Part shown: piece after piece, positions 208-11,544 of the stretch
How the letters are laid out: the number at the start of each line of letters is the position of its first letter
How positions within the stretch are numbered: the stretch's first letter is position 1
Source of the DNA: Sphingomonas sp.
Lineage (GTDB): Bacteria > Pseudomonadota > Alphaproteobacteria > Sphingomonadales > Sphingomonadaceae
Direction of reading: 5' to 3'
Assembly: GCF_017304635.1 (NCBI RefSeq)
Contig: NZ_JAFKMA010000004.1
Span: 248,001-312,000, forward strand
Length of the DNA stretch: 64,000 nucleotides
Notes under the pieces: generated by a model
Database searches by the model: none
What the model saw: only the letters and a program-made list of their open reading frames with translations
Told to the model about the DNA's origin: nothing
Position numbers and translations under genes: made by a program

Positions 208-972
208 ATGACCCTGACGATGGAGGCCGCACCGACCGCGGCGGTCCGGCCCCGAACCGATATTCCCCCTCGGGAGGAATACGTCTGCTGGTCGCGCATG
301 CAGGCCGAGGCCGGCCAGGGGCTAGACGCGATCGTCGAACGCAAGGAGCGCGAGCGTCAGGCCGGCGGCGGCTCGTTCCTCTGGGGCGTGGGCAACGCGC
401 CCGCCCAGGTGACGAACGTGCTGGCGCGGGCCGGCATACCTGTCCGCGCGGTGTTCTCGGTGATGAAGACGCGGCCGAAGGCCGTCGACGTCTCGCCGTC
501 GCGCACCGTCATCTGGCGCCGCTACGTCGACGCTCAGGGTGTCGAGCGGCCGTTACCGCCGCATGCGCTGGTCACCAGCCGCGGCGACAGCGCGGGCGGA
601 GCCAAGCGCGTCCATCACGCCCTGATGTGCAGGTCGGACACGCCCCTCGCCATCAGACGCGGCGACGCGTTCGATCCGGCGGCATTCAGGAACGCCGGCG
701 GGTCGGGCGCGCCCGTCGGCTTCTCGCAGGTGACCGCCCTGCTGCGGCGCGTGCAGTTCGACCACGACCGCTCGGATTACGAGGCCAATCTGACGGCCTG
801 GCTGGCGGACAGCTACTGGGTCCGCCTCACCGATCCGGACGAACTCGACGCCGACCGGCTCGCCATCCTCGCCGACATACCGCGCCAGCCGCTCGACAGC
901 TGGTGCGACCTGGTCGCCCGGATACGCGGTGCACCTGCCGCCGTCGCCGTCGCGCCCGGCAGGCTGGTCTGA
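208..972 (+). CDS. Unrecognised protein, first gene of ImmA/PIN cassette
   Basis: This is a soluble protein of about 254 residues that I do not recognise. The frame is open further upstream, but the ATG at 208 has GAGGA 8 bases before it and the protein-like composition begins there (MTLTMEAAP). Visible features are the sequence FLWGVGNAP near residue 57, a charged central part, and a C-terminal region rich in Asp, Leu and Arg. There is no signal peptide and no membrane segment. It is followed after 63 bases by an ImmA/IrrE peptidase gene and then a PIN-like gene on the same strand. The FLWGVG stretch could hint at a small EVE/ASCH-like fold, but that is only a guess. It could be the substrate, antitoxin or sensor of the cassette. 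Confidence 0.65.
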   Translation: MTLTMEAAPTAAVRPRTDIPPREEYVCWSRMQAEAGQGLDAIVERKERERQAGGGSFLWGVGNAPAQVTNVLARAGIPVRAVFSVMKTRPKAVDVSPSRTVIWRRYVDAQGVERPLPPHALVTSRGDSAGGAKRVHHALMCRSDTPLAIRRGDAFDPAAFRNAGGSGAPVGFSQVTALLRRVQFDHDRSDYEANLTAWLADSYWVRLTDPDELDADRLAILADIPRQPLDSWCDLVARIRGAPAAVAVAPGRLV

Positions 973-1035: not shown

Positions 1036-2028
1036 GTGGCGGGAGACGATGACAACCTGATCGAGCGGCTGCGGAAGGCGGGGTTCAGCCGCGCCGCGAT
1101 TCGCGCGGCATGGCCGTCGTGGTGGACCGAGGAGGCCGGCGAGACCCCGTCGGGCCGCGCCGAGCTGCGGTTCGCGCTCGCGCGCCGGCTCGGCCTCGAA
1201 CCCAAGCCGCTCCTCGGCGAACGCGTCGAGTTCGTCTGGAACGACGAGGCGCGCTTCAAGCACCTGTCCACCCACGACGACGCACAGAAGGCCGCGCTGA
1301 CGTCGTTCGGGATGTCGGTCGGCCGGCTGCTGCTGCGCGCCACGCCAGCCGGGCCGACCGATCGGATCGCGGCGGAAGCGCTGCGCGACGCCATCATGGC
1401 CGGGTCGCCGTTCGTCGATCTCGGATCGCTGCTCGGCACCTGCTGGGCGCTGCGCATCCCGGTCATCCACCTGCGCGTCTTCCCGCTCGAGGCGAAGTCG
1501 ATGCACGCCATGGTCGTGGGCGTCGACGGGCGGTTCGCGATCCTGCTCGGGCGCGACGCGGCCTATCCGGCACCGGTGGCTTTCACCCTCGCGCACGAAC
1601 TGGGCCACGTCATGCTCGGCCACCTCGCCGACGCGCCGGCGCTGATCGACCTGGAGGATCCGGCCCTCGCGCGCGACGGCGACGAGCAGGAGGAGGAGGC
1701 GGACCGGTTCGCGCTGACGCTGCTCACCGGCTCGCCCGAACCCGACATCCAGACCGACATCGACCACTTCAACGCCCCGACGCTCGCCGCGGCGGTGCTG
1801 CGCGCGTCGGGCGAATACGGGGTCGAGCCCGGCACGCTGGCTCTCTGCCTCGCGCACGGCCGCGGCCTGTGGCCGGTCGCGATGTCCGCGCTCGGCTTCA
1901 TCTACGGCGAACGCAAGCCGGCCTGGCGCGAGGTGAACGGGATCGCCGACGGCGAACTCGACTGGGACGCGCTGGGCGACGAGGCCGCCCACTATCTGCG
2001 GAACGTCATGATCGGCGACAATGCCTGA
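1036..2028 (+). CDS. ImmA/IrrE-family metallo-endopeptidase
   Basis: A 330-residue zinc peptidase of the ImmA/IrrE (COG2856) family. The zinc motif HELGH is at residues 187-191, in the context FTLAHELGHVMLGH, and an acidic stretch at about 218-222 (EQEEEADRFA) supplies the likely third ligand. The first 80 residues form a helical region that resembles the arm often found between an Xre-type domain and the peptidase, but no complete HTH is clear. The start is GTG at 1036 with a strong AGGGGG ahead of it. Family members cleave repressors or antitoxins. Here the gene overlaps the PIN-like gene by 8 bases, so the two are probably translated together and act together. Confidence 0.9.
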   Translation: MAGDDDNLIERLRKAGFSRAAIRAAWPSWWTEEAGETPSGRAELRFALARRLGLEPKPLLGERVEFVWNDEARFKHLSTHDDAQKAALTSFGMSVGRLLLRATPAGPTDRIAAEALRDAIMAGSPFVDLGSLLGTCWALRIPVIHLRVFPLEAKSMHAMVVGVDGRFAILLGRDAAYPAPVAFTLAHELGHVMLGHLADAPALIDLEDPALARDGDEQEEEADRFALTLLTGSPEPDIQTDIDHFNAPTLAAAVLRASGEYGVEPGTLALCLAHGRGLWPVAMSALGFIYGERKPAWREVNGIADGELDWDALGDEAAHYLRNVMIGDNA

Positions 2029-2686
2029 GCGCGTCCTGCTGGACAACGACGTGGTCCTCAAGGTCGCGTGCTACGCCTTGGTCGAAGAGACGGTCGCCGC
2101 CGCCACCATCGACGACATCCCGCCCGCGATGCTGGGCGTCGGGCGCTTCGTCGTCCGCGGCAGGCTCGCCCGCGCCCCGAACATCGCCGATCGCGCACGC
2201 GCGACCGCTGCGTTCGAGCGCATGCTGGCGGCGATGTTGCTCGTCGAGCCCGACGATGCCGAGATGGCGGCGGCCGCCGACCTGGAAGCCGAGGCCAACC
2301 GCCGCGACCTCGAGCTAGACGGTGGCGAGAGTCAGCTCCTTGCGATGCTCGCGAACCGCGCATGCAAGCTGCTGATCACCGGCGACAAGCGCGCGATCGC
2401 GGCGATGGCGATCGTCGCCGTCGGCGTCGCGGGTGGCAGGGTTGCCTGCCTGGAGCAGTTGATGGCGCACATCGTGACCGGCACCGGTGCCGCTGTGACG
2501 CGCGCACGCGTATGTGCCGAGGCGCAGGTGGATCGAGCGATCACCGCCTGCTTCGGATGCTCGACGACCGCTCCCCCGCGAGACGAGGACGTATTGGATG
2601 GGCTGGCCAGCTATTCGGCCCACCTCGATCGCACGGCCCCGGGGGTGCTGCTTCCAGGCACCGACCTGCGGAACGTCCGCGCTTAG
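2021..2686 (+). CDS. PIN-like domain protein, partner of ImmA/IrrE peptidase
   Basis: A 221-residue protein starting LLDNDVVLK, the usual first strand and first acidic residue of a PIN nuclease fold. A second acidic cluster follows in the middle (DLELDGGESQLLAML), then the strand KLLITGDKRAI, which matches the later PIN strand with its conserved Gly-Asp. The last 70 residues are an extra tail with Cys residues around 166-169. The ATG at 2021 lies inside the end of the peptidase gene (ATGCCTGA), which indicates translational coupling. PIN proteins are usually Mg-dependent RNases, often toxins. Whether all four acidic residues are present needs a structure model. Confidence 0.7.
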   Translation: MPERVLLDNDVVLKVACYALVEETVAAATIDDIPPAMLGVGRFVVRGRLARAPNIADRARATAAFERMLAAMLLVEPDDAEMAAAADLEAEANRRDLELDGGESQLLAMLANRACKLLITGDKRAIAAMAIVAVGVAGGRVACLEQLMAHIVTGTGAAVTRARVCAEAQVDRAITACFGCSTTAPPRDEDVLDGLASYSAHLDRTAPGVLLPGTDLRNVRA

Positions 2687-2733: not shown

Positions 2734-3150
2734 CTACGCGGCGTTCAACGAATCCATGATCGGGCACTCCGGGACGTCGCCACCCGCACAGCGCGACGAC
2801 ATGTCGGCGAGCGTGCGCTCCAGCCGGCGCAGGTCGGAGATGCGCCTACGCACGTCCTGCAAGTGCCGCTCGGTCAAGGCCAGCACCTCCCCGCAGGTGT
2901 ATCGGTGCGAATCGGCCAGCCCGAGCAGGCTGCGCAACTCGTCGACGGAGAATCCCAGCTCGCGCGCCCGCAGGATGAACCCCAGCCGCGCCTGATCCTG
3001 CGGCGCATAGACGCGGTGGCCGCCCCGGGTCCGGTCGGGTGCCGCGAGAAGGCCAATCGTCTCGTAGTAGCGGATCGTCTCGATGTTGCACGAGAAGAGC
3101 TTCGCGAGCGCGCCCCGCTTGAGTGCCTGGCCGGTGGCGACGAAACCCAT
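2734..3150 (-). CDS. merR: MerR-family mercury-type regulator
   Basis: A 138-residue MerR regulator. The N-terminal winged helix (residues 14-80, CNIETIRYYETIGLL) is followed by the dimer helix. Three cysteines sit at 86, 121 and 129, with the 35-residue spacing of the Hg(II)-binding Cys in MerR. The ATG at 3150 was chosen because upstream codons extend into the operator and do not look like MerR. It is divergent from merT, across a 65-base gap with a classic MerR operator. It would repress, and with Hg(II) activate, merTP. The same operator core is present at 26210-26230, so this protein may also act there. A lead or cadmium specificity cannot be excluded. Confidence 0.88.
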   Translation of the reverse strand: MGFVATGQALKRGALAKLFSCNIETIRYYETIGLLAAPDRTRGGHRVYAPQDQARLGFILRARELGFSVDELRSLLGLADSHRYTCGEVLALTERHLQDVRRRISDLRRLERTLADMSSRCAGGDVPECPIMDSLNAA

Positions 3151-3163
3151 GAAAAAAAACCTC

Positions 3164-3194
3164 TTGAACCTGTAGCAGCTACAGGAACTATACC
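3164..3194 (+). promoter_or_regulatory. mer promoter with MerR operator
   Basis: A -35 element TTGAAC at 3164-3169 and a -10 TATACC at 3189-3194 are separated by 19 bases, the over-long spacing typical of MerR-regulated promoters. A perfect palindrome, CCTGTAGC-A-GCTACAGG (3169-3185), lies in the spacer. It drives merT on the plus strand and lies just upstream of merR on the minus strand. Confidence 0.85.
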
Positions 3195-3215
3195 ATCGTC
3201 GGAGGCTGATCGAGT

Positions 3216-3599
3216 ATGGAACGGATGGACGCGGCACCGACCAGGAAGACGCCCGCCGGCGGCGGGCGGTGGTTGGCGGCCGGCGGGATCGTCGGGGCGC
3301 TGCTCGCCTCGTCGTGCTGCATCTTGCCGCTCGTCCTCGTCACGCTCGGGGTGTCGGGTGCCTGGATCGGCAATCTGTCGACGCTAGCACCATACAATCC
3401 ACTTTTCGTCGCGATGACGCTGGCCTGCCTCGCCGGCGGCTTCTGGCACGTGTATCTACGCCCCCGGCCCGCCTGCCCGCCGGGAAGCCAATGCGCACGG
3501 CCAAGCTCGGCGATATTCACCAAGGCGGCGCTGTGGACGGCGACCGCCCTCGTCCTCGCCGCGATGACGATGTCGTGGTGGGCGCCCCTCTTCTACTAG
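3216..3599 (+). CDS. merT: Mercuric ion transporter MerT
   Basis: A 127-residue inner-membrane protein with three hydrophobic segments (about 21-43, 61-80 and 101-123). The vicinal cysteines SSCCILP in the first helix are the Hg(II)-accepting pair of MerT, and a second Cys pair (ACPPGSQC) lies in the cytoplasmic loop. MerT takes mercury from periplasmic MerP into the cytoplasm, normally handing it to the reductase MerA. It is transcribed from the MerR operator just upstream and followed after 9 bases by merP. No merA is in the window, so the fate of imported Hg(II) is open. Confidence 0.93.
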   Translation: MERMDAAPTRKTPAGGGRWLAAGGIVGALLASSCCILPLVLVTLGVSGAWIGNLSTLAPYNPLFVAMTLACLAGGFWHVYLRPRPACPPGSQCARPSSAIFTKAALWTATALVLAAMTMSWWAPLFY

Positions 3600-3608
3600 G
3601 AACAGCAA

Positions 3609-3923
3609 ATGAAGAACCGCACGCTCGTCTTCGCCGTCTTGTTGGCGACATCCGCCAGCGTCGCCGCGCTCACGCTCGCACCAGCGACCGCGAGCGCGCC
3701 CGCGCGGGAAGTTACCCGGACGTTCGCGGTGGGCAACATGACCTGCGCGACCTGTCCGATCACCGTGAAGACCGCGATGAGCCGCGTCGCGGGGGTCAGG
3801 ACGGTCACCGTCGATTTCGCGGCGAAGACCGCCACGGTCACCTACGATCCGACCAAGGCCAACCCGTCCACGATCGCGGCAGCGTCGACCAACGTCGGAT
3901 TCCCGGCGAAACCATTGACCTGA
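3609..3923 (+). CDS. merP: Periplasmic mercury-binding protein MerP
   Basis: A 104-residue protein with an N-terminal signal peptide (to about residue 30, ending in ATASA) and one HMA domain. The metal motif GNMTCATCPITVKTA contains the paired cysteines that bind Hg(II). Length and layout are normal for MerP. It scavenges mercury in the periplasm and passes it to MerT. It is the second gene of the mer operon, 9 bases after merT. Confidence 0.95.
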   Translation: MKNRTLVFAVLLATSASVAALTLAPATASAPAREVTRTFAVGNMTCATCPITVKTAMSRVAGVRTVTVDFAAKTATVTYDPTKANPSTIAAASTNVGFPAKPLT

Positions 3924-3984
3924 ACCACGGTGCCGCGTGGCCCATCGGTGCGATGGGCGACCGGCCGCCGACGAAGGGCCGACC

Positions 3985-4209
3985 ATGATACCCCAATCCA
4001 CCCTGACCTGCCCCAAGTGCGGACATGTCGAGACCGAGACGATGCCCACCAACGCCTGCCAGTTCTTCTACGACTGCAAGGGCTGCGCGGCGGTGCTCCG
4101 CCCGAACGCGGACGACTGCTGCGTCTTCTGCTCCTTCGGAACGGTGCCGTGTCCACCGATCCAGGAATCGCGCATCTCGGGCGCGGACCCCTGCTGCCGG
4201 GCCGGCTAG
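3985..4209 (+). CDS. GDCCVxC-type Cys-rich small protein
   Basis: A 74-residue Cys-rich protein. It has a leading CPKCGH pair, a middle CKGC pair and the signature DDCCVFC followed by SFGTVPCPP. This matches the small GDCCVxC-domain family, which occurs beside merT/merP genes and sometimes carries selenocysteine. Here the signature is DDCCVFC, and all positions are ordinary Cys codons. The ATG at 3985 gives the family-like start (MIPQSTLTCPKCG). It is 61 bases after merP and probably in the same operon. Its biochemical role is unknown; a thiol metal-binding or handover role is likely. Confidence 0.85.
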   Translation: MIPQSTLTCPKCGHVETETMPTNACQFFYDCKGCAAVLRPNADDCCVFCSFGTVPCPPIQESRISGADPCCRAG

Positions 4210-4257: not shown

Positions 4258-4845
4258 TCAGCGCTGGCCCCGAAGGAACACCGCGTAAGGGGCCTGGAGC
4301 GTCGCAACCAGGTTGATCTCGATCTCGCGCGGATCGACGTCGTTGGTGAGCTCGGGCGCGTCGAGCACCTCGAGGCAGGCCTTGTCGACCCGGCCCTTGA
4401 TGTAGCGGCTGCCCAGCCGGCCGGTGCTCGGCCCGACCGGCACCCGCGTCTGATCCAGCGGAAGCATGAAGCGCTCCTCGTGCAGCCGATCTATGACGAG
4501 CGCGTAGCGCGACCCTCTGACCTGGATCGTCTCCGGTATTTCCTTCCATGTCACGCCGTCGGGCGAATATTCGGCCGCGCACAGAGGCTCGGCGAAATGG
4601 TTCGACTCCATCTGCTCCATGCAGAGGTGGATGGTGCGGTCGCGCGAGGCGAAGGACCTGGCGAACGGCTGGACCATCGAGGACGGGTGGCAGGTGTTGC
4701 CGCCATAGCCCCACATGCCGAACCCGGTCTGACGGATCTCCTCGGTCTTGCGCGCGATGATCGCCGCGAGGTCCTCGCGGGCATGCGTCCCGATCTTCAT
4801 GAAGAGCAGACCCGCCCCGGGCTTTACGATGTCATTCACGGCCAC
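4258..4845 (-). CDS. Unknown protein, fourth gene of BpsA-like operon
   Basis: A 195-residue soluble protein that I do not recognise. It starts at a GTG (4845) that lies 14 bases inside the end of the BpsA-like gene, so the two are coupled. Notable stretches are GLLFMKIGTHARE near the start, and GFGMWGYGGNTCHP at about residues 41-54, whose Gly, Trp, Cys and His density looks like an active-site or ligand loop. The C-terminal half is strand-rich. It has no signal peptide or membrane segment. It is the last gene of the operon that begins at 7036. Its function is unknown; the context suggests a shared task with the kinase and transferase. Confidence 0.75.
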   Translation of the reverse strand: MAVNDIVKPGAGLLFMKIGTHAREDLAAIIARKTEEIRQTGFGMWGYGGNTCHPSSMVQPFARSFASRDRTIHLCMEQMESNHFAEPLCAAEYSPDGVTWKEIPETIQVRGSRYALVIDRLHEERFMLPLDQTRVPVGPSTGRLGSRYIKGRVDKACLEVLDAPELTNDVDPREIEINLVATLQAPYAVFLRGQR

Positions 4846-5752
4846 TGTCCAGCAACTCCAATTCGTATTCGTCCTCGTGCGCGACCCCGTAGTCGAGCCG
4901 CTTGCGTGCCCTTACGTAGCGGACCCGCGGCTCCTGCGACAGACCGTAGAAGTGCTCCAGGCGGGCGGGATCGGTGATCCCGACGCTCGCCGCGCGCGCG
5001 GGATTGCCCGGTAGCGCGGCGAGGTAGAGGTTGCAGGACTTCAGCTCGGGCGCATCGTCGAGATGGTATTCGTGCAGCTTGCGCTGCATGCGCGACACGT
5101 AGAAGCCCTGGCGCGCCGCGAACCCCTGGACGCTGGCGAGAACCTGCTTGGGCCAGTCGAGATCATCGTCGTCGGCGATGACCACCACGCCCTCGCCGGC
5201 GTGGCCGGTCGCCTCCATCCCGCGCTCGACGAAGACGTTCACGCTCTCGCCGTTGTTCGACGCGCCCCAGGGCGGGTTGGTGTAGAAGCAGTCGAACAGC
5301 TCGCCCGGCTCCATCGCGTCGAGGACGTTGTAGAGCCGCGCGTCGAGGTTCGCGATGCGCTCGCGGTCGGCGAAGTTCATCACCGCCTCGACGGTCCGCT
5401 CGTCGAAGTCGAACACCGTGATGTGCGACGGTCCGAAGTTCAGCACGTCGCGTGCGCGCAAATAGGCGACGCAGACGCTGATCGCATCGCCGTCGCCGAT
5501 GAAGGCCAGGCGCTTGCCGTCGGCCCAGTCGGCGATCATCTCGCTCTGCAGCACCATGTCGCCGGTCTTCATGTGGATCTGGTCGAACACGCGCAGCGGC
5601 CGAGGCCGGTTCTGCACGACGTCCGACACCGCATTGATCGCCTTGCGGAGATCGACTCGCCGCCGCTCCTGCGGCGCCGACTGCACCAACTGTTCCGGCT
5701 GCTGACCGCCGCCGCGGACGATGCCGCCGATCCACCCAAGCACCCCGGTCAT
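4832..5752 (-). CDS. BpsA-like (DUF43) aminopropyl/methyltransferase
   Basis: A 306-residue protein resembling the branched-chain polyamine synthase (BpsA, DUF43) family of class I transferases. A Rossmann first strand LAFIGDGDAISV (about 83-93), an acidic second strand VFDFDERT, and the motif NPPWG (159-163) are visible. The NPPW-type motif is also typical of enzymes that modify an amine nitrogen. The start ATG (5752) overlaps the kinase stop by 4 bases (ATGA). Known BpsA makes branched polyamines in thermophiles; a mesophilic relative in an operon with a kinase probably has another substrate. It could be an aminopropyltransferase or an N-methyltransferase. Confidence 0.8.
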   Translation of the reverse strand: MTGVLGWIGGIVRGGGQQPEQLVQSAPQERRRVDLRKAINAVSDVVQNRPRPLRVFDQIHMKTGDMVLQSEMIADWADGKRLAFIGDGDAISVCVAYLRARDVLNFGPSHITVFDFDERTVEAVMNFADRERIANLDARLYNVLDAMEPGELFDCFYTNPPWGASNNGESVNVFVERGMEATGHAGEGVVVIADDDDLDWPKQVLASVQGFAARQGFYVSRMQRKLHEYHLDDAPELKSCNLYLAALPGNPARAASVGITDPARLEHFYGLSQEPRVRYVRARKRLDYGVAHEDEYELELLDSGRE

Positions 5753-6327
5753 GCGAGCCTCGCCGCAAGGCGGTCGACCAGCACGCCGCGTTCCGCCGCG
5801 GTGTCGAAGAGAAAGACGGGCCGGCCGAGGGACATGCCGTAGGTCGCCGCCACCGACGACTGCAACGCGGTGTGCGTCCTCGCCTCCTCCACCGTCACCA
5901 TCGGTCGCCCGCCCGCGTCTTCCGCGATGCGCCGCCGGGTCTCCTCGGGGCTGGCGTAGAGCACCCATATCTCGTCAGGCGCGAGCTGCGCGAAGCGCGC
6001 GAGCGAGAATGGCGTTATGCGGTATCCGTATTCTTCCTTGGTGACCGGATGGCTGTCGATAAGGACGTCGCTGCGGCCGCGGTGATCCTCGACGAAGGCG
6101 ATCAGGGCATCGTCGACCTCGTCGACGTCGCCCGGCGTGACTACGCCGGCCGAGCGCGTTCGCAACTCGTCCTGGTCAACCAATCCATCGCTGCGCGCGC
6201 GGACATGCTCGGTCAATCGCGCGCCGTATTCCCAGACCTGCAGCCCGGGCACACGCTCGGCGAGCATCCTCGTCGTCGAACTCTTCCCCGACGCCGGCGC
6301 GCCGGTCAGGTATATGACCTTAGGCAT
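5749..6327 (-). CDS. P-loop kinase (adenylate-kinase-like)
   Basis: A 192-residue P-loop protein with Walker A GAPASGKSS at residues 9-17 directly after the first strand (KVIYLT). A central Asp strand (DVLIDSHPV) and an Arg-rich lid-like helix (SPEETRRRIAEDA) resemble small-molecule or nucleotide kinases of the adenylate-kinase type. It has no transmembrane segment. It is the second gene of the operon: 97 bases after the first gene and overlapping the BpsA-like gene by 4 bases. It may phosphorylate the substrate of that transferase or a nucleotide; this is inferred. Confidence 0.82.
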   Translation of the reverse strand: MPKVIYLTGAPASGKSSTTRMLAERVPGLQVWEYGARLTEHVRARSDGLVDQDELRTRSAGVVTPGDVDEVDDALIAFVEDHRGRSDVLIDSHPVTKEEYGYRITPFSLARFAQLAPDEIWVLYASPEETRRRIAEDAGGRPMVTVEEARTHTALQSSVAATYGMSLGRPVFLFDTAAERGVLVDRLAARLA

Positions 6328-6424
6328 TGAAATCCCCCCGAATGGCAGGATCGTCGCGGATCGCCGCCGCGAGTCAAGGGGGCCGGTCCGGGATGGTGCG
6401 ATCGGGTCGAGGCGCAGCCCGGAG

Positions 6425-7036
6425 CTAGGGTTGGAAAAGTGCGTCGTCCGGCGGCAGCGCGATCACGCCCTCGACGGCCGACGACAGCGCGAGGCACGCC
6501 GCGTCGAAGGCCGCCCACGCCTGGGCGTCGTCACGGCCGTAGCCGATCGCATTGGTGTGCATCTCGAGGCACCCCGCATTCCCGAAGAACGTCCGCAGCG
6601 GCGTGATCGTGATCTCGAAGGTGTAGTGGTGCGCGTCGCTGCCGGCGGTGCGGCCCAGCACGGCGCGCGCGAGTTCGTATATGCGTGCGGCGGTGTTCAT
6701 CCCGGCCGCGCGGAAGGCGATCGCGACATACGACCCGACGTAGCGGTCCGGCTCGCCTTCCGATTCCGGTTCCCGAGTAAACATCCCGCACTCGCAACCG
6801 AGCGTCATGAGTGGCGACCCGCGCCCGTTGACCGTCTCCAGCAGCGTGCGCAGGCCCACCGAGCGCTTCGCCTCGGGAATCTCGGCCGCGAGCTCGGGCC
6901 GGTCGGCGAGGTCGACGAAGCCGTGGTTGCGGTCGCCGTTCTCGCGATCGACGGCGCCATAGGGTATGGACGAGTGCGCCTCGTCGTCCTGCGCGACGGT
7001 GTAACCTGGCCCCTGCGCCAGGATGGTGTAGGCCAT
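6425..7036 (-). CDS. Unknown protein, first gene of BpsA-like operon
   Basis: A 203-residue protein starting MAYTILAQGPGYTVAQ. The frame stays open to an upstream TTG at 7084, but the ATG at 7036 has GGAGGAAG a few bases before it. A Cys cluster (LGCECGMF at about 81-88) and strand-rich segments such as YTFEITITPLRTFFG are visible. It has no signal peptide. I recognise no family. It is preceded by the copper ATPase gene, which ends 68 bases upstream on the same strand, so read-through from the copper promoter is possible. Its partner genes are the kinase, the BpsA-like transferase and a second unknown. Confidence 0.72.
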   Translation of the reverse strand: MAYTILAQGPGYTVAQDDEAHSSIPYGAVDRENGDRNHGFVDLADRPELAAEIPEAKRSVGLRTLLETVNGRGSPLMTLGCECGMFTREPESEGEPDRYVGSYVAIAFRAAGMNTAARIYELARAVLGRTAGSDAHHYTFEITITPLRTFFGNAGCLEMHTNAIGYGRDDAQAWAAFDAACLALSSAVEGVIALPPDDALFQP

Positions 7037-7104: not shown

Positions 7105-9462
7105 TCAGAGCCGCGTGGCGTTCAGCCGCAGGGCGTTCGTCACCACGGTGAAGCTCGACAGCGCCATCGCGGCGCCGGCGATCATCGGCGACAGCAGGAT
7201 GCCGGCGACGGGATAGAGCACACCGGCGGCGACCGGCACGCCGATGCCGTTGAACAGGAACGAGAAGAACAGGTTCTGGCGGATGTTGCGCATCGTCGCC
7301 TTCGCGAGCCGGCGAGCGCGCACCATCGCCGCTAGGTCACCCTTGGTCAGCGTCACGCCCGCGCTCTCGATCGCGACGTCCGTGCCGGTGCCCATGGCGA
7401 CGCCGACGTCCGCGGCCGCGAGCGCCGGCGCATCGTTGATGCCGTCCCCCGCCATGGCCACGACCGCGCCGTTCGCGCGTAGTTCGGCGACGATCCGCGC
7501 CTTGTCTTCGGGCTTCAGGCCGGCATGCACCTCGTCGATGCCGCCGATCGACGCTGCCACCGCTTTGGCGGTCGCCTCGGCGTCGCCCGTGAGCATGACG
7601 ATCCGCAACCCTTCCCCGTGCAAGGCGGCGATCGCCGGTGCCGCGGATTCCTTCACAGGGTCGGCGACGACGAGAAGCCCGGCGAGACGACCTTCGATGG
7701 CCACGAACATCGCGCCGGCGCCGGTGCCCCGGTGACGCTCGGCCGCGAACTGGAGCGGAGCCGCGTCGACGCCGACCCGCACCATTTGGTCGGCACTGCC
7801 GACCACAACCGTCCGACCATCGACCCTTCCGGTCACCCCAAGTCCGGTTTGCGACTCGAAATCGCGCACCTCGGGCACCTCCGACCCATCGTCCTGCGCG
7901 GCGTCGACGATGGCGCGCGCCAGCGGATGCTCCGACCGCGCCTCGACGGCCGCCGCCGCAGACAGGACGTCCGCACGGAAGAATCCGGTCGCGACCTCGA
8001 CGTCGACGAGGCTTGGCCGGCCCTCGGTCAGCGTGCCCGTCTTGTCGATCACCAGCGTGTCGACGCGCTCGAGCAGCTGCAGCGCCTCGGCGTCCTTCAC
8101 CAACACCCCGGCGTGCGCCCCGCGTCCGGTCCCGACCATGATCGACATCGGCGTCGCCAGCCCGAGCGCGCAAGGACAGGCGATTATCAGCACGGCGATG
8201 GCGTTCAGCAGGGCGTGCCCGAAGCGCGGCTCCGGCCCGACGAGGTTCCACACGACAAACGTCGCGACCGCGACCAGGACGACGAGCGGCACGAACCAGC
8301 CGGAAACGCGGTCCGCTACCGCCTGGATCGGCGCACGGCTGCGCTGCGCCTGCGCGACCATTCGCACGATGCGCGCCAGCACGGTGTCCGAGCCGACCGC
8401 ACGCGCCTCGATCAGCAGCGACCCGGTCCCGTTGACCGTGCCGCCCGTCACCTCCGCGTCGGCCTCCTTCAGCACGGGTGCCGGCTCACCGGTCAGCATC
8501 GCCTCGTCGACCGACGATCGGCCCTCGACGACGACGCCATCGACCGGCACCGCCTCGCCGGGCCTGACGCGCAGGCGGTCGCCCTCGGCGACGTCGTCCA
8601 GCGACACCTCCTGTTCGGCCCCATCGGCGCCGATCCTGATCGCCGTCTTGGGCGCGAGGTCGAGCAGCGCCCGGATGGCTCGCCCGGTCGCGGCGCGCGC
8701 GCGCAGCTCGAGGACCTGGCCGAGCAGGACGAGCGTCACCACCACGGCCGCCGCCTCGTAATAGACCGGCACCATCCCGTGCATGCGGAAGGTATCCGGG
8801 AAAAGGCCGGGCGCGACCGTCGCCACGACGCTGTAGGCGAACGCCGCGCCGACGCCGATCGACACCAGCGTGAACATGTTGAGGTGCCAGGTGACGATCG
8901 ACGTCCAGCCGCGCTGGAAGAACGGCAGCCCTGCCCACAGCACGACCGGTGCAGCCAAGAGCAGCTGGACCCAGGGATTCCATGCCGCTGGCACGAGCGC
9001 CACGCCCAGCATCTCCGCGACCATGGACACCGCCAGCAGCGGCACGGTCAGCGCGCCAGCCACCCAGACCCGGCGCGTGAAGTCGACCAGCTCGGGATTG
9101 GGCGCGTCGTCGAGCGACGGCTCCTCGGGCTCGAGCGCCATGCCGCAGATCGGGCACGTGCCCGGGCCCTCGCGGCGGATCTCTGGATGCATCGGGCACG
9201 TCCACATCGCGCCGGGGGCAGCCGTCGGCGCCACCAGGCGTCCGTCGCCCAGGTAGCGCCCGGGGTCGGCGACGAACTTCGCGCGGCAACCGCCCGAGCA
9301 GAAGTGATAGTCGGTGCCGTCGTGCCGGGCGTGATGCCCGGTCGCCGCCGGGTCCACGTCCATGCCGCAGACGGGATCCTTCACCGTCTCGCCTTTGGCC
9401 GTGCCGTGTCCGGCGCAGCAGGCGTGTCCCGCGTTCATCGAGCCGTGTCCGTGATCGTGCAT
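7105..9462 (-). CDS. Copper-translocating P1B-type ATPase
   Basis: A 785-residue P-type ATPase that pumps Cu(I) out of the cytoplasm. Order: a His-rich N-terminus; a YHS domain (about 27-70); a heavy-metal-binding domain CPMHP...[10 protein letters not shown] (about 89-112); membrane helices; the actuator loop with TGE (324-326); the CPC transport motif at 429-431 ([12 protein letters not shown]); the phosphorylation motif DKTGT (D473); the hinge GDGINDAP; and two final helices. The YHS plus CPMHP N-terminus replaces the usual HMA domains. The ATG at 9462 has GGAGGACC ahead of it. The copper box lies just upstream. Often named copA or actP; the name copA is kept for the oxidase at 16179. Confidence 0.95.
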
Positions 9463-9489
9463 ATCGGTCCTCCGGCACCCCAAATGGCG

Positions 9490-9585: not shown

Positions 9586-10260
9586 ATGCCGACCGAAGAG
9601 GGACAGGACCGCGCATTCACGCCGGCGCTCGGCCGGGGGCCGACGAGGCTCTACGACGCCGCGCTCCGCGTCTTCACGCGCGAGCGCCGTTGGCGCGGCG
9701 CGGTGATGGACGCGGTCGCCGCCGCGAACCCGAGGACCGTGCTCGACGTAGGCTGCGGCACCGGGACGCTGGCCATCGGCATGGCGAGCCGGATTCCCGG
9801 CGCGTTGGTCACCGGCCTCGACCCGGATACCGAGGCGCTCGCGATCGCCGCGCGAAAGACCGCCGGAGTTCGGCAAAGCATCGCCTGGCGGATCGGATTC
9901 GCATCGGATGCCGCCCTCGACGGCCGCGCGAGCGCGTTCGACGTCGTCACGTGCACACTGGTGCTCCACCAGGTGCCGCTCGCCGGCAAGGCCGTCGGCC
10001 TGTCGGCAATGCAAGCGGCGCTGCGCCCCGGCGGCCGGCTGGTGCTGGCCGACTATTCGGAACAGCGGTTGCCGCTGATGCGCGCGCTGTTCCGCCTGAC
10101 CGTGCAGCGCATCGATGGGCGCGAGGACACGCAGCCCAACGCGGACGGCGTCCTGCCCCGGCTCATCGCCGGGGCCGGCTTCGCCGATGTCGCCGAATCG
10201 ATGGTCATCCCGACGCCTTCGGGCTCGATCAGCATCCTCACCGCCACCAAGGTCGGCTGA
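9586..10260 (+). CDS. Class I SAM-dependent methyltransferase
   Basis: A 224-residue methyltransferase. Motif I is VLDVGCGTGTLA (about 52-63), an acidic second strand follows (GLDPDTEAL), then the post-motif DVVTCTLVLHQVP and LRPGGRLVLADY, which are typical of the Methyltransf_11/25 group acting on small molecules. It starts at an ATG 123 bases from the divergent copper ATPase. The region between them holds the copper box, so it could be co-regulated with copper. The substrate cannot be read from the sequence; arsenite-type methylation is unlikely because the Cys residues needed are missing. Confidence 0.88.
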   Translation: MPTEEGQDRAFTPALGRGPTRLYDAALRVFTRERRWRGAVMDAVAAANPRTVLDVGCGTGTLAIGMASRIPGALVTGLDPDTEALAIAARKTAGVRQSIAWRIGFASDAALDGRASAFDVVTCTLVLHQVPLAGKAVGLSAMQAALRPGGRLVLADYSEQRLPLMRALFRLTVQRIDGREDTQPNADGVLPRLIAGAGFADVAESMVIPTPSGSISILTATKVG

Positions 10261-10371: not shown

Positions 10372-11544
10372 GTGCTGCTGACCTGGTCCTGGAAATTGCG
10401 TCCGACACGCGCGCAGCATCGCCTGCTCGAACGGGCGCTGGAGCTGCAACGGCAACTCTACAACGCGGCACTGGAGGAGCGGATCGACGCGTGGCGCAAG
10501 TTCGGCCTTTCGATCTCGCTATACGACCAGATGAAATCGCTTACCCTGATCCGAGCCGACGACATCGATGGCTATGGCGCTGCGTCAGTGGCGATGTCGC
10601 GCTGGACGCTGAAGCGCCTCGATGACGCGATGAAGGGCTTTTTCCGTCGCGTGAAGAGTTCGAAGGCTGGCGCCGGCTTCCCGCGCTTTCGCTCCTATAA
10701 GCGTTGGCACAGTCTGGGGTTCGCCGAGTGGTCCGGCATTCGGCTTGTCGGCGACAGGCTGCGCATCCAGGGCTTAGAGCGTGGAATCCGCATCAACATG
10801 CACCGCCCGCTGCCGGCCGACGCGGTGCCGAAGTGCGCGTCGATAACCCGCAAGGGGCGGCGCTGGTTCGCCAACATTACGATTGAGAGCGAGGCCATCG
10901 TCGAGCGGCACACCGGCACAGGCGGAGCGCTCGGCGTCGACGCTGGCGTCGCCAGCGTCGCGACCTTCTCTGATGGCATCACGTTCCTAAAAGTTGCTCC
11001 GGGACGGCATCATGCTGACGCAATGCGGCGTGCGCAGCGCGCACTGGCGCGCTGCCGGCGCGGGTCGCGGCGGCGCGAGAAGGTTCGCGCGCGCTTGGGG
11101 CGGCTGCACCTGCGCGTCGCCAACACCCGCGCCACGCATCTTCACCGTGTGAGCGCCATCACCGCTCGGATGTATTCGACGATCGTCGTCGAAGATCTGA
11201 ACCTTCGTAACATGACGCGCTCAGCCAAGGGCATGGCGGACGCACCTGGCACGAACGTGGCGGCGAAGTCGGGCCTGAACCGTTCGGTGCTCGACGCCGG
11301 CATGGGCAAGTTGATACATATGCTGACCTACAAGGCGGAGCGATCCGGGGGCCGGCTGATCAAGGTGGATCCGCATGACACGTCGCAGGACTGCTCGGGG
11401 TGCGGCGTGCGGGTGGCCAAGGCGCTCGTCGTCCGATCCCACGCATGCGAAGCCTGCGGACTGACACTCGACCGCGACGTCAACGCGGCCAGGAACATCC
11501 TGGCGCGCGGCCTAGCCTCGCTTGAGGCGAGCGCGGGGGTCTGA
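10372..11544 (+). CDS. tnpB: TnpB RNA-guided nuclease (IS200/IS605-type)
   Basis: A 390-residue TnpB. The N-terminal helix-turn region (residues 1-110) is followed by the RuvC domain. Its catalytic residues appear intact: D190 (GVDAGV), E274 (IVVEDLNLRN) and D369 (LDRDVNAARN). A zinc ribbon is present at C341, C344, C359 and C362. Known TnpBs use a right-end RNA to cut matching DNA next to a short TAM. The start is GTG at 10372. No tnpA transposase is beside it, so the element is either TnpA-dependent in trans or stranded. It sits between a methyltransferase and fliQ, in an otherwise metal-related block. Confidence 0.93.
   Translation: MLLTWSWKLRPTRAQHRLLERALELQRQLYNAALEERIDAWRKFGLSISLYDQMKSLTLIRADDIDGYGAASVAMSRWTLKRLDDAMKGFFRRVKSSKAGAGFPRFRSYKRWHSLGFAEWSGIRLVGDRLRIQGLERGIRINMHRPLPADAVPKCASITRKGRRWFANITIESEAIVERHTGTGGALGVDAGVASVATFSDGITFLKVAPGRHHADAMRRAQRALARCRRGSRRREKVRARLGRLHLRVANTRATHLHRVSAITARMYSTIVVEDLNLRNMTRSAKGMADAPGTNVAAKSGLNRSVLDAGMGKLIHMLTYKAERSGGRLIKVDPHDTSQDCSGCGVRVAKALVVRSHACEACGLTLDRDVNAARNILARGLASLEASAGV

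Follow-up and report, generated by a model that had tools for sequence, protein, structure and literature searches.

The subject of this study is a gene module in a stretch of 64,000 nucleotides from Sphingomonas sp. (contig NZ_JAFKMA010000004.1, positions 248,001 to 312,000), analysed as a whole, referred to here as the window and numbered from its first letter. An earlier note on this DNA had pointed to four minus-strand genes as an unexplained operon; the flagged genes are one half of a recurrent five-to-six-gene cassette. This cassette is a conserved pair of convergent operons, (KIN)-BPS-WG1 facing (WG2)-IMM-PIN, which is present in distant bacteria. In the window, the first operon is encoded on the minus strand and comprises the optional AAA_17 P-loop kinase KIN (5749..6327), the BpsA_C-related class I methyltransferase BPS (4832..5752) with its GDGD and NPPWG motifs, and the WGYGGN protein WG1 (4258..4845), a putative YTH-like reader of modified bases. 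Past an inserted mer cassette, the module continues on the plus strand at positions 208-2686 with WG2 (208..972), a second WGxGN protein homologous to WG1, the ImmA/IrrE (COG2856/CapP-like) metallopeptidase IMM with an N-terminal extension (1036..2028), and the PIN-fold protein PIN, a putative RNase (2021..2686), whose gene overlaps that of IMM by 8 nt. The start codon of WG2 was picked by eye within an enclosing open reading frame (ORF) that begins at position 28. We regard the membership of the module and its convergent layout as solid, with very little room for doubt.

The recurrence of the cassette was assessed with profiles grown from the window genes. A scan of the WG1 alignment against the genome contigs of 84,980 species yielded 103 relatives, the best 80 of which were retained and, together with four plasmid and four IMG/VR loci, make up the 88 loci compared here. 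They were retrieved via WG1 (82 of the 88: L004, L005 and L010-L089), via BPS (L006-L009) or via WG2 (L092 and L095); the loci are not independent, and the WG1 count is given by construction for 82 of them. Near-copies occur among them (L010-L012; L021 and L022; L004, L005 and L064-L066), and loci from the window's own genome and a relative (L001-L003), or from the same contigs as L004 and L005 (L090, L091, L093 and L094), were excluded. In this collection the profiles found IMM in 87 loci (one of these counts, in L086, being a weak 29-bit match away from the module), WG1 and PIN in 86 each, BPS in 85, WG2 in 82, KIN in 36 and P4, the remaining flagged gene, in one; contig ends explain some of the absences. 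The stop codons of WG1 and PIN lie no more than 60 nt apart, and often overlap, in 78 of 85 loci. For the residue counts given below, the alignments contain the window sequence and part of the loci (79 of 88 for WG1, 80 of 82 for WG2, 80 of 86 for PIN, 53 of 88 for BPS and 28 of 36 for KIN), as plasmid rows or near-copies, and for BPS and KIN further rows to keep the set small, were dropped.

Judged by record titles, the loci with all five genes belong to Pseudomonadota (55), Actinomycetota (10), Acidobacteriota (6), Myxococcota (1) and Cyanobacteriota (1), with six lacking a named group, and a Chloroflexi bin carries a partial gene set. Members from Acidobacteriota, Myxococcota, Cyanobacteriota and Chloroflexi are bins only; those from Actinomycetota include isolates of Nocardioides, Mycobacterium, Pseudonocardia and Antrihabitans, so that contamination of bins does not explain the actinobacterial spread. 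A five-gene tree tracks the phyla fairly closely (six changes against a minimum of four), and the distance matrices of the families are correlated with each other (r 0.58-0.88 over the 79 loci that have the complete five-gene set). BPS itself was present in two of 61 genomes searched, the host being one of the two, and a TBLASTN search of 72,556 plasmid records with BPS returned five. The Agrobacterium, Sinorhizobium and Rhizobium records among these carry kinase-BPS-WG1, followed by an opposite-strand gene of about 220 aa and an ImmA/IrrE gene; of the other two, one nearly duplicates the Rhizobium record, and one, from Pseudomonas koreensis, contains these families in a different gene order. 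When the same plasmid collection was searched in reverse with the other families, WG1, BPS and KIN matched the identical five records and PIN four of these; IMM matched 14 records and WG2 12. On an IMG/VR contig, too, BPS-WG1 faces these convergent genes, with a WG1 relative beyond the protease gene. Apart from P4, the flagged gene set does co-occur in distant genomes, and it matched no described pathway in the open-licence papers searched, most subscription journals lying outside that search. A survey of BREX systems (PMC12839542) makes no mention of YTH, BpsA, ImmA or DUF43.

The description of the third flagged gene as BpsA-like with an intact NPPWG motif is borne out by its Pfam match to BpsA_C (PF01861, E 2.4e-13, 50.3 bits against a cut-off of 27), and its nearest solved relatives are 2qm3 (E 1.2e-14) and Tk-BpsA (5xnc, E 1.7e-14). 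NPPW is a signature of amino-methyltransferases. GDGD and NPPWG are kept in all 54 BPS rows; PADLOC's mad2 model matches 49 of these 54 (best 1.7e-13) and one Type II MTase model 28, and there is a weak match to the rRNA m6A methyltransferase METTL5 (E 0.0088). A target-recognition domain is not evident in the 306-aa protein. The alignment with BpsA spans about 150 residues from near BpsA residue 106, the first part of BpsA being without a counterpart; residue numbers were counted in this alignment, with the GDDD motif setting an offset of 20. The GDDD of BpsA (Gly157-Asp160) is aligned to the GDGD of BPS, so that Asp160 is retained and Asp159 is replaced by Gly, and Asp225 of the BpsA DPP motif is replaced by the Asn of NPPWG, each in 54 of 54 rows. 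Asp159 and Asp160 are essential in BpsA, and Asp225 is among the residues that raise the nucleophilicity of the acceptor, according to a review (PMC12979288). The replacement of Asp159 and Asp225 makes the synthesis of branched polyamines or of a metal-binding amine unlikely, and of the two options weighed in the earlier note, a small-molecule pathway or a defence system, the latter is the better supported. BPS also has an acidic C-terminal tail (consensus DEYxLELLE), which may or may not correspond to the acidic aminopropyl-carrier cluster of BpsA. To judge from these motifs, BPS is a BpsA-related methyltransferase and not BpsA, and the annotation as a 'bis-aminopropyl spermidine synthase family protein', given to four of the five plasmid copies, is probably misleading.

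WG1 and WG2 are related to each other (profile comparison: probability 96.7%, E 3.6e-10), and Pfam holds no family for either of them or for P4. The Gly/Cys-rich loop noticed earlier in the last flagged gene, WG1, is conserved: in WGYGGNTCHP, residues W45, G46, Y47, G48, G49, C52 and P54 occur in all 80 rows and H53 in 79. W45 is aligned with W59 of WG2, which, like W103, is found in 81 of 81 rows; W100 of WG1 and W103 of WG2 are unaligned in the profile comparison. In a forced, low-confidence alignment, W45 and W100 of WG1 fall on two tryptophans of YTH, which we take to be those of the aromatic cage for the methylated base. Neither the YTH profile PF04146 nor Pfam EVE matches any of the 80 WG1 or 81 WG2 members, hhalign comparisons of WG1 and WG2 with YTH and EVE are not significant, and hhalign scores against six EVE sequences are at chance, being reached by 49 of 50 shuffles for WG1 and 8 of 50 for WG2. 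In a YTH search of 25 genomes out of the 80 that carry the module, no match exceeded the cut-off and three weak places came up, none at WG1 or WG2 coordinates; ASCH was above its cut-off in six of these 25 genomes, counted anywhere in the genome. VIA gave no EVE chain among the 50 matches listed, which excludes nothing; the PIN, WG1 and WG2 profiles found nothing useful among PDB sequences, and a search of predicted viral folds gave no match to WG1 at E 0.001. That WG1 and WG2 read methylation is a tentative proposal that we consider doubtful. WG2 is co-directional with IMM in 40 loci and divergent in 41, and it stands alone, with the rest of the module absent within 6 kb, in plasmid records from Rhizobium phaseoli, Methylomonas and Burkholderia. 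On the R. phaseoli plasmid (L114, 4644-11306), it lies beside a DUF4258 gene and beside TcmP, DUF5131 (PADLOC candidates PDC-M30/PDC-M41) and N6-methylase genes.

IMM matches Peptidase_M78 (25.1 bits against a cut-off of 22) and the PADLOC model capP (E 3e-11), and its HExxH motif is present in 85 of 85 sequences; the distant IMM of L009 falls just below the Peptidase_M78 cut-off (20.8 bits). In the locus listings it adjoins PIN. Of the 41 loci with divergent WG2, 30 have a gene related to the helix-turn-helix (HTH) proteins from L004 or L009 directly beside IMM, as does one of the seven other loci; none of the 40 with co-directional WG2 has it. PIN has a PIN fold, and its structural matches are led by VapC-type toxins; a Pfam scan of the 81 PIN rows gave no match. 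Its acidic residues D8, E103 and D122 are found in 81 of 81 rows and D100 in 78; these include the putative metal ligands. An IMM-PIN pair without BPS, WG1 or WG2 within 6 kb exists in two P2-like prophages (Klebsiella and Enterobacter records) and on a Fischerella plasmid. In the prophages, the pair forms an accessory insertion flanked by the genes of the replication endonuclease and the portal protein (L117, 5974-7617; L119, 5974-7614).

The four minus-strand ORFs (7036-6425, 6327-5749, 5752-4832 and 4845-4258) are intact, and the last three overlap by 4 nt (5749-5752) and 14 nt (4832-4845), as the earlier note had described. The second is indeed a P-loop kinase (AAA_17, Pfam E 7e-16) with the Walker A motif in 36 of 36 sequences, and shows a weak likeness to PADLOC's mad8 (E 0.0029). 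The idea of a four-gene operon did not survive: three of the genes belong together, the note missed WG2, IMM and PIN at 208-2686, and P4 (6425..7036, minus strand), a family-less protein, stands 97 nt apart from KIN. Its single occurrence in the 88 loci is in a close relative (L012), there too just upstream of KIN. P4 matches phrog_18578, a family without a function (E 1.3e-7), was absent from the 50,697 phage records searched, and has two weak plasmid relatives in records that lack a BPS or WG1 match. We therefore ruled out P4 as a member of the module on the strength of the one locus in 88 and the plasmid relatives in other records.

The metal genes right beside the flagged genes are an insertion into the tail-to-tail junction of the two convergent operons. 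The cassette (2734..4209), which is not part of the system, comprises merR on the minus strand and merT, a MerP-like HMA gene and a small Cys-rich ORF on the plus strand; MerR-DNA-bind, MerT and HMA are matched in Pfam, and the Cys-rich ORF is not. It widens the gap between the PIN and WG1 stop codons to 1571 nt, compared with at most 60 nt in 78 of 85 loci. L012 (10631-13476) has the same mer gene order in this junction with an extra Pyr_redox (merA-like) ORF, and the corresponding gap of L010 measures 1569 nt. No merA-like ORF lies between the PIN and WG1 stop codons of the window. An examination of repeats at the mer borders gave no convincing transposon ends. As the mer genes were acquired by insertion, the metal context is uninformative on function, and a metal-related role of the module, suggested by context only, was rejected on the basis of the gap size and L012. 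Further flanking genes encode a P-type metal ATPase (7105-9483), a small methyltransferase (9586-10260) and, beyond these, a TnpB/OrfB_IS605-type protein with a Cas12f1-like TNB domain (10372-11544).

Collectively, these data make it fairly probable that the module has a role in defence or addiction in which a nucleic-acid methyltransferase and a PIN nuclease take part. A more specific reading, in which nucleic-acid methylation gates the PIN RNase of an immunity or addiction module, is plausible, if somewhat short of an even chance. BPS would methylate an exocyclic amino group of nucleic acid, probably adenine N6; RNA is the more likely substrate, as the VapC-type proteins that PIN matches cleave RNA. 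WG1 would guide the writer BPS or read the mark, and WG2 would sense its presence or absence and set the activity of PIN. IMM, activated by infection or DNA damage (single-stranded DNA in characterised relatives), would cleave a repressor, the HTH protein adjoining it in many loci, and thereby release PIN. Antitoxin or self-marker would be the role of the methyltransferase half, and toxin that of the PIN half; in the simplest account, repression and the methyl-mark state would hold the toxin back until infection or DNA damage is sensed by the protease. KIN would be an accessory. In its most detailed form, the proposal reads that the NPPW methyltransferase marks RNA, possibly with m6A, that two standalone YTH-like readers, each encoded in a different operon, report the mark, and that the damage-activated protease sets the PIN RNase free to attack RNA that is unmarked or carries the wrong mark; with all these parts taken together, we consider it rather unlikely.

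The methylation may instead concern DNA, in a restriction-modification or modification-dependent restriction system in which BPS methylates DNA adenine or cytosine, WG1 and WG2 read modified DNA, and PIN either cuts DNA or serves as a suicide arm. The Type II MTase and mad2 likeness of BPS would fit such a system, as would a prokaryotic YTH domain fused to McrB that is reported to bind m6A in DNA (PMC7641849); the VapC-type toxins leading the PIN matches, the weak METTL5 likeness of BPS and its lack of an evident target-recognition domain speak against it, and we deem the DNA version unlikely. The cassette might also consist of two unrelated modules that happen to be adjacent, a plain Xre-ImmA-PIN toxin-antitoxin system and a separate methyltransferase pair. 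Such independence would agree with the free-standing IMM-PIN pairs, with the lone WG2 genes on three plasmids, and with second, divergent BPS-WG1 pairs near the main module of two loci (L019, 6939-8500; L036, 5685-7100), for which no PIN half of their own is listed. Yet no more than 60 nt separate the two halves in most loci, both in Pseudomonadota and in Actinomycetota, their family distances correlate, and the homologous WG1 and WG2 are split one per half, which renders chance adjacency decidedly unlikely.

Who benefits from the module is a question that leaves the proposed methylation-gated mechanism untouched. Two plasmids typed as conjugative and IMG/VR contigs carry it, as would be expected of plasmid or prophage maintenance by addiction, or of anti-defence, rather than host immunity; 80 of the 88 loci are nevertheless genome contigs, and neighbouring genes include GajA/GajB-like genes (L006), LmuABC (L007) and an AAA ATPase (L008), which suggest defence islands, these being three hand-picked records without a background rate. 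We hold a maintenance or anti-defence role without host immunity to be improbable. A small-molecule pathway, polyamine-like or towards a modified nucleotide, into which the kinase, the BpsA-like transferase and a PIN-fold enzyme could be fitted, is very unlikely given the replaced BpsA aspartates, the presence of KIN in merely 36 of the 88 loci, the stress-type protease and defence neighbours, and the conserved acidic residues of PIN.

The picture of a polyamine enzyme beside metal genes is hence replaced by that of a recurrent cassette with a putative toxin (PIN), a putative switch (IMM) and a putative writer (BPS-WG1), and a function can now be proposed for two families without Pfam entries, which are conserved across isolates of Pseudomonadota and Actinomycetota and also occur in bins from other phyla. 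If WG1 and WG2 read the mark, this would be a new bacterial way of joining RNA modification with RNA cleavage in immunity; a writer-reader-RNase module of this kind, in at least two bacterial phyla, would be to RNA what restriction-modification is to DNA, and would parallel the m6A writers and readers of eukaryotes.

The module shares single components with several known systems. With MADS it has the mad2-like methyltransferase core and the very weak mad8 likeness of KIN in common; identity with MADS was rejected, as no other mad model matched the core proteins scanned, and mad3 matched only neighbourhood AAA proteins that score better as GajA or LmuB. IMM resembles the protease-repressor switches CapP of CBASS and PprI-IrrE of Deinococcus in protease family and HExxH motif, whereas it has a long N-terminal extension and sits in a PIN/methyltransferase module. 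BPS and BpsA (PF01861) share a Rossmann methyltransferase-like core; unlike BpsA, BPS lacks Asp159, Asp225 and the first part of the protein, carries NPPWG and occurs in mesophilic hosts, with no polyamine genes noticed near the module. The fold proposed for WG1 and WG2 is that of the YTH-like modified-base readers of the CoCoNuT and McrB-YTH restriction systems (PMC11090510, PMC7641849), although the match here is weak; in contrast to those readers, WG1 and WG2 are standalone, are paired with a putative writer, and come without a McrB GTPase. The parts also recall the predicted (PIN)-GNAT-EVE systems with ASCH and AAA_17 (Bell 2020, PMC7641849), which likewise combine a PIN nuclease, frequent AAA_17, HTH proteins and a defence or prophage context, and whose two PUA-like domains are mirrored by our two YTH-like candidates. 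Here, however, a methyltransferase takes the place of GNAT, none of which was among the Pfam matches of the window core proteins; the proteins are separate and not fused, an ImmA/IrrE protease is nearly constant, and the candidate readers are not detectable by Pfam as EVE or ASCH. The three-component Xre-COG2856-PIN toxin-antitoxin arrangement predicted by Makarova (2009, PMC2701414) likewise has the gene of an HExxH ImmA/IrrE protease beside that of a PIN toxin, with an HTH protein in many loci and an occurrence in prophages and on plasmids; to this arrangement, our module adds a methyltransferase, the homologous WG1 and WG2, an optional kinase and a conserved convergent layout.

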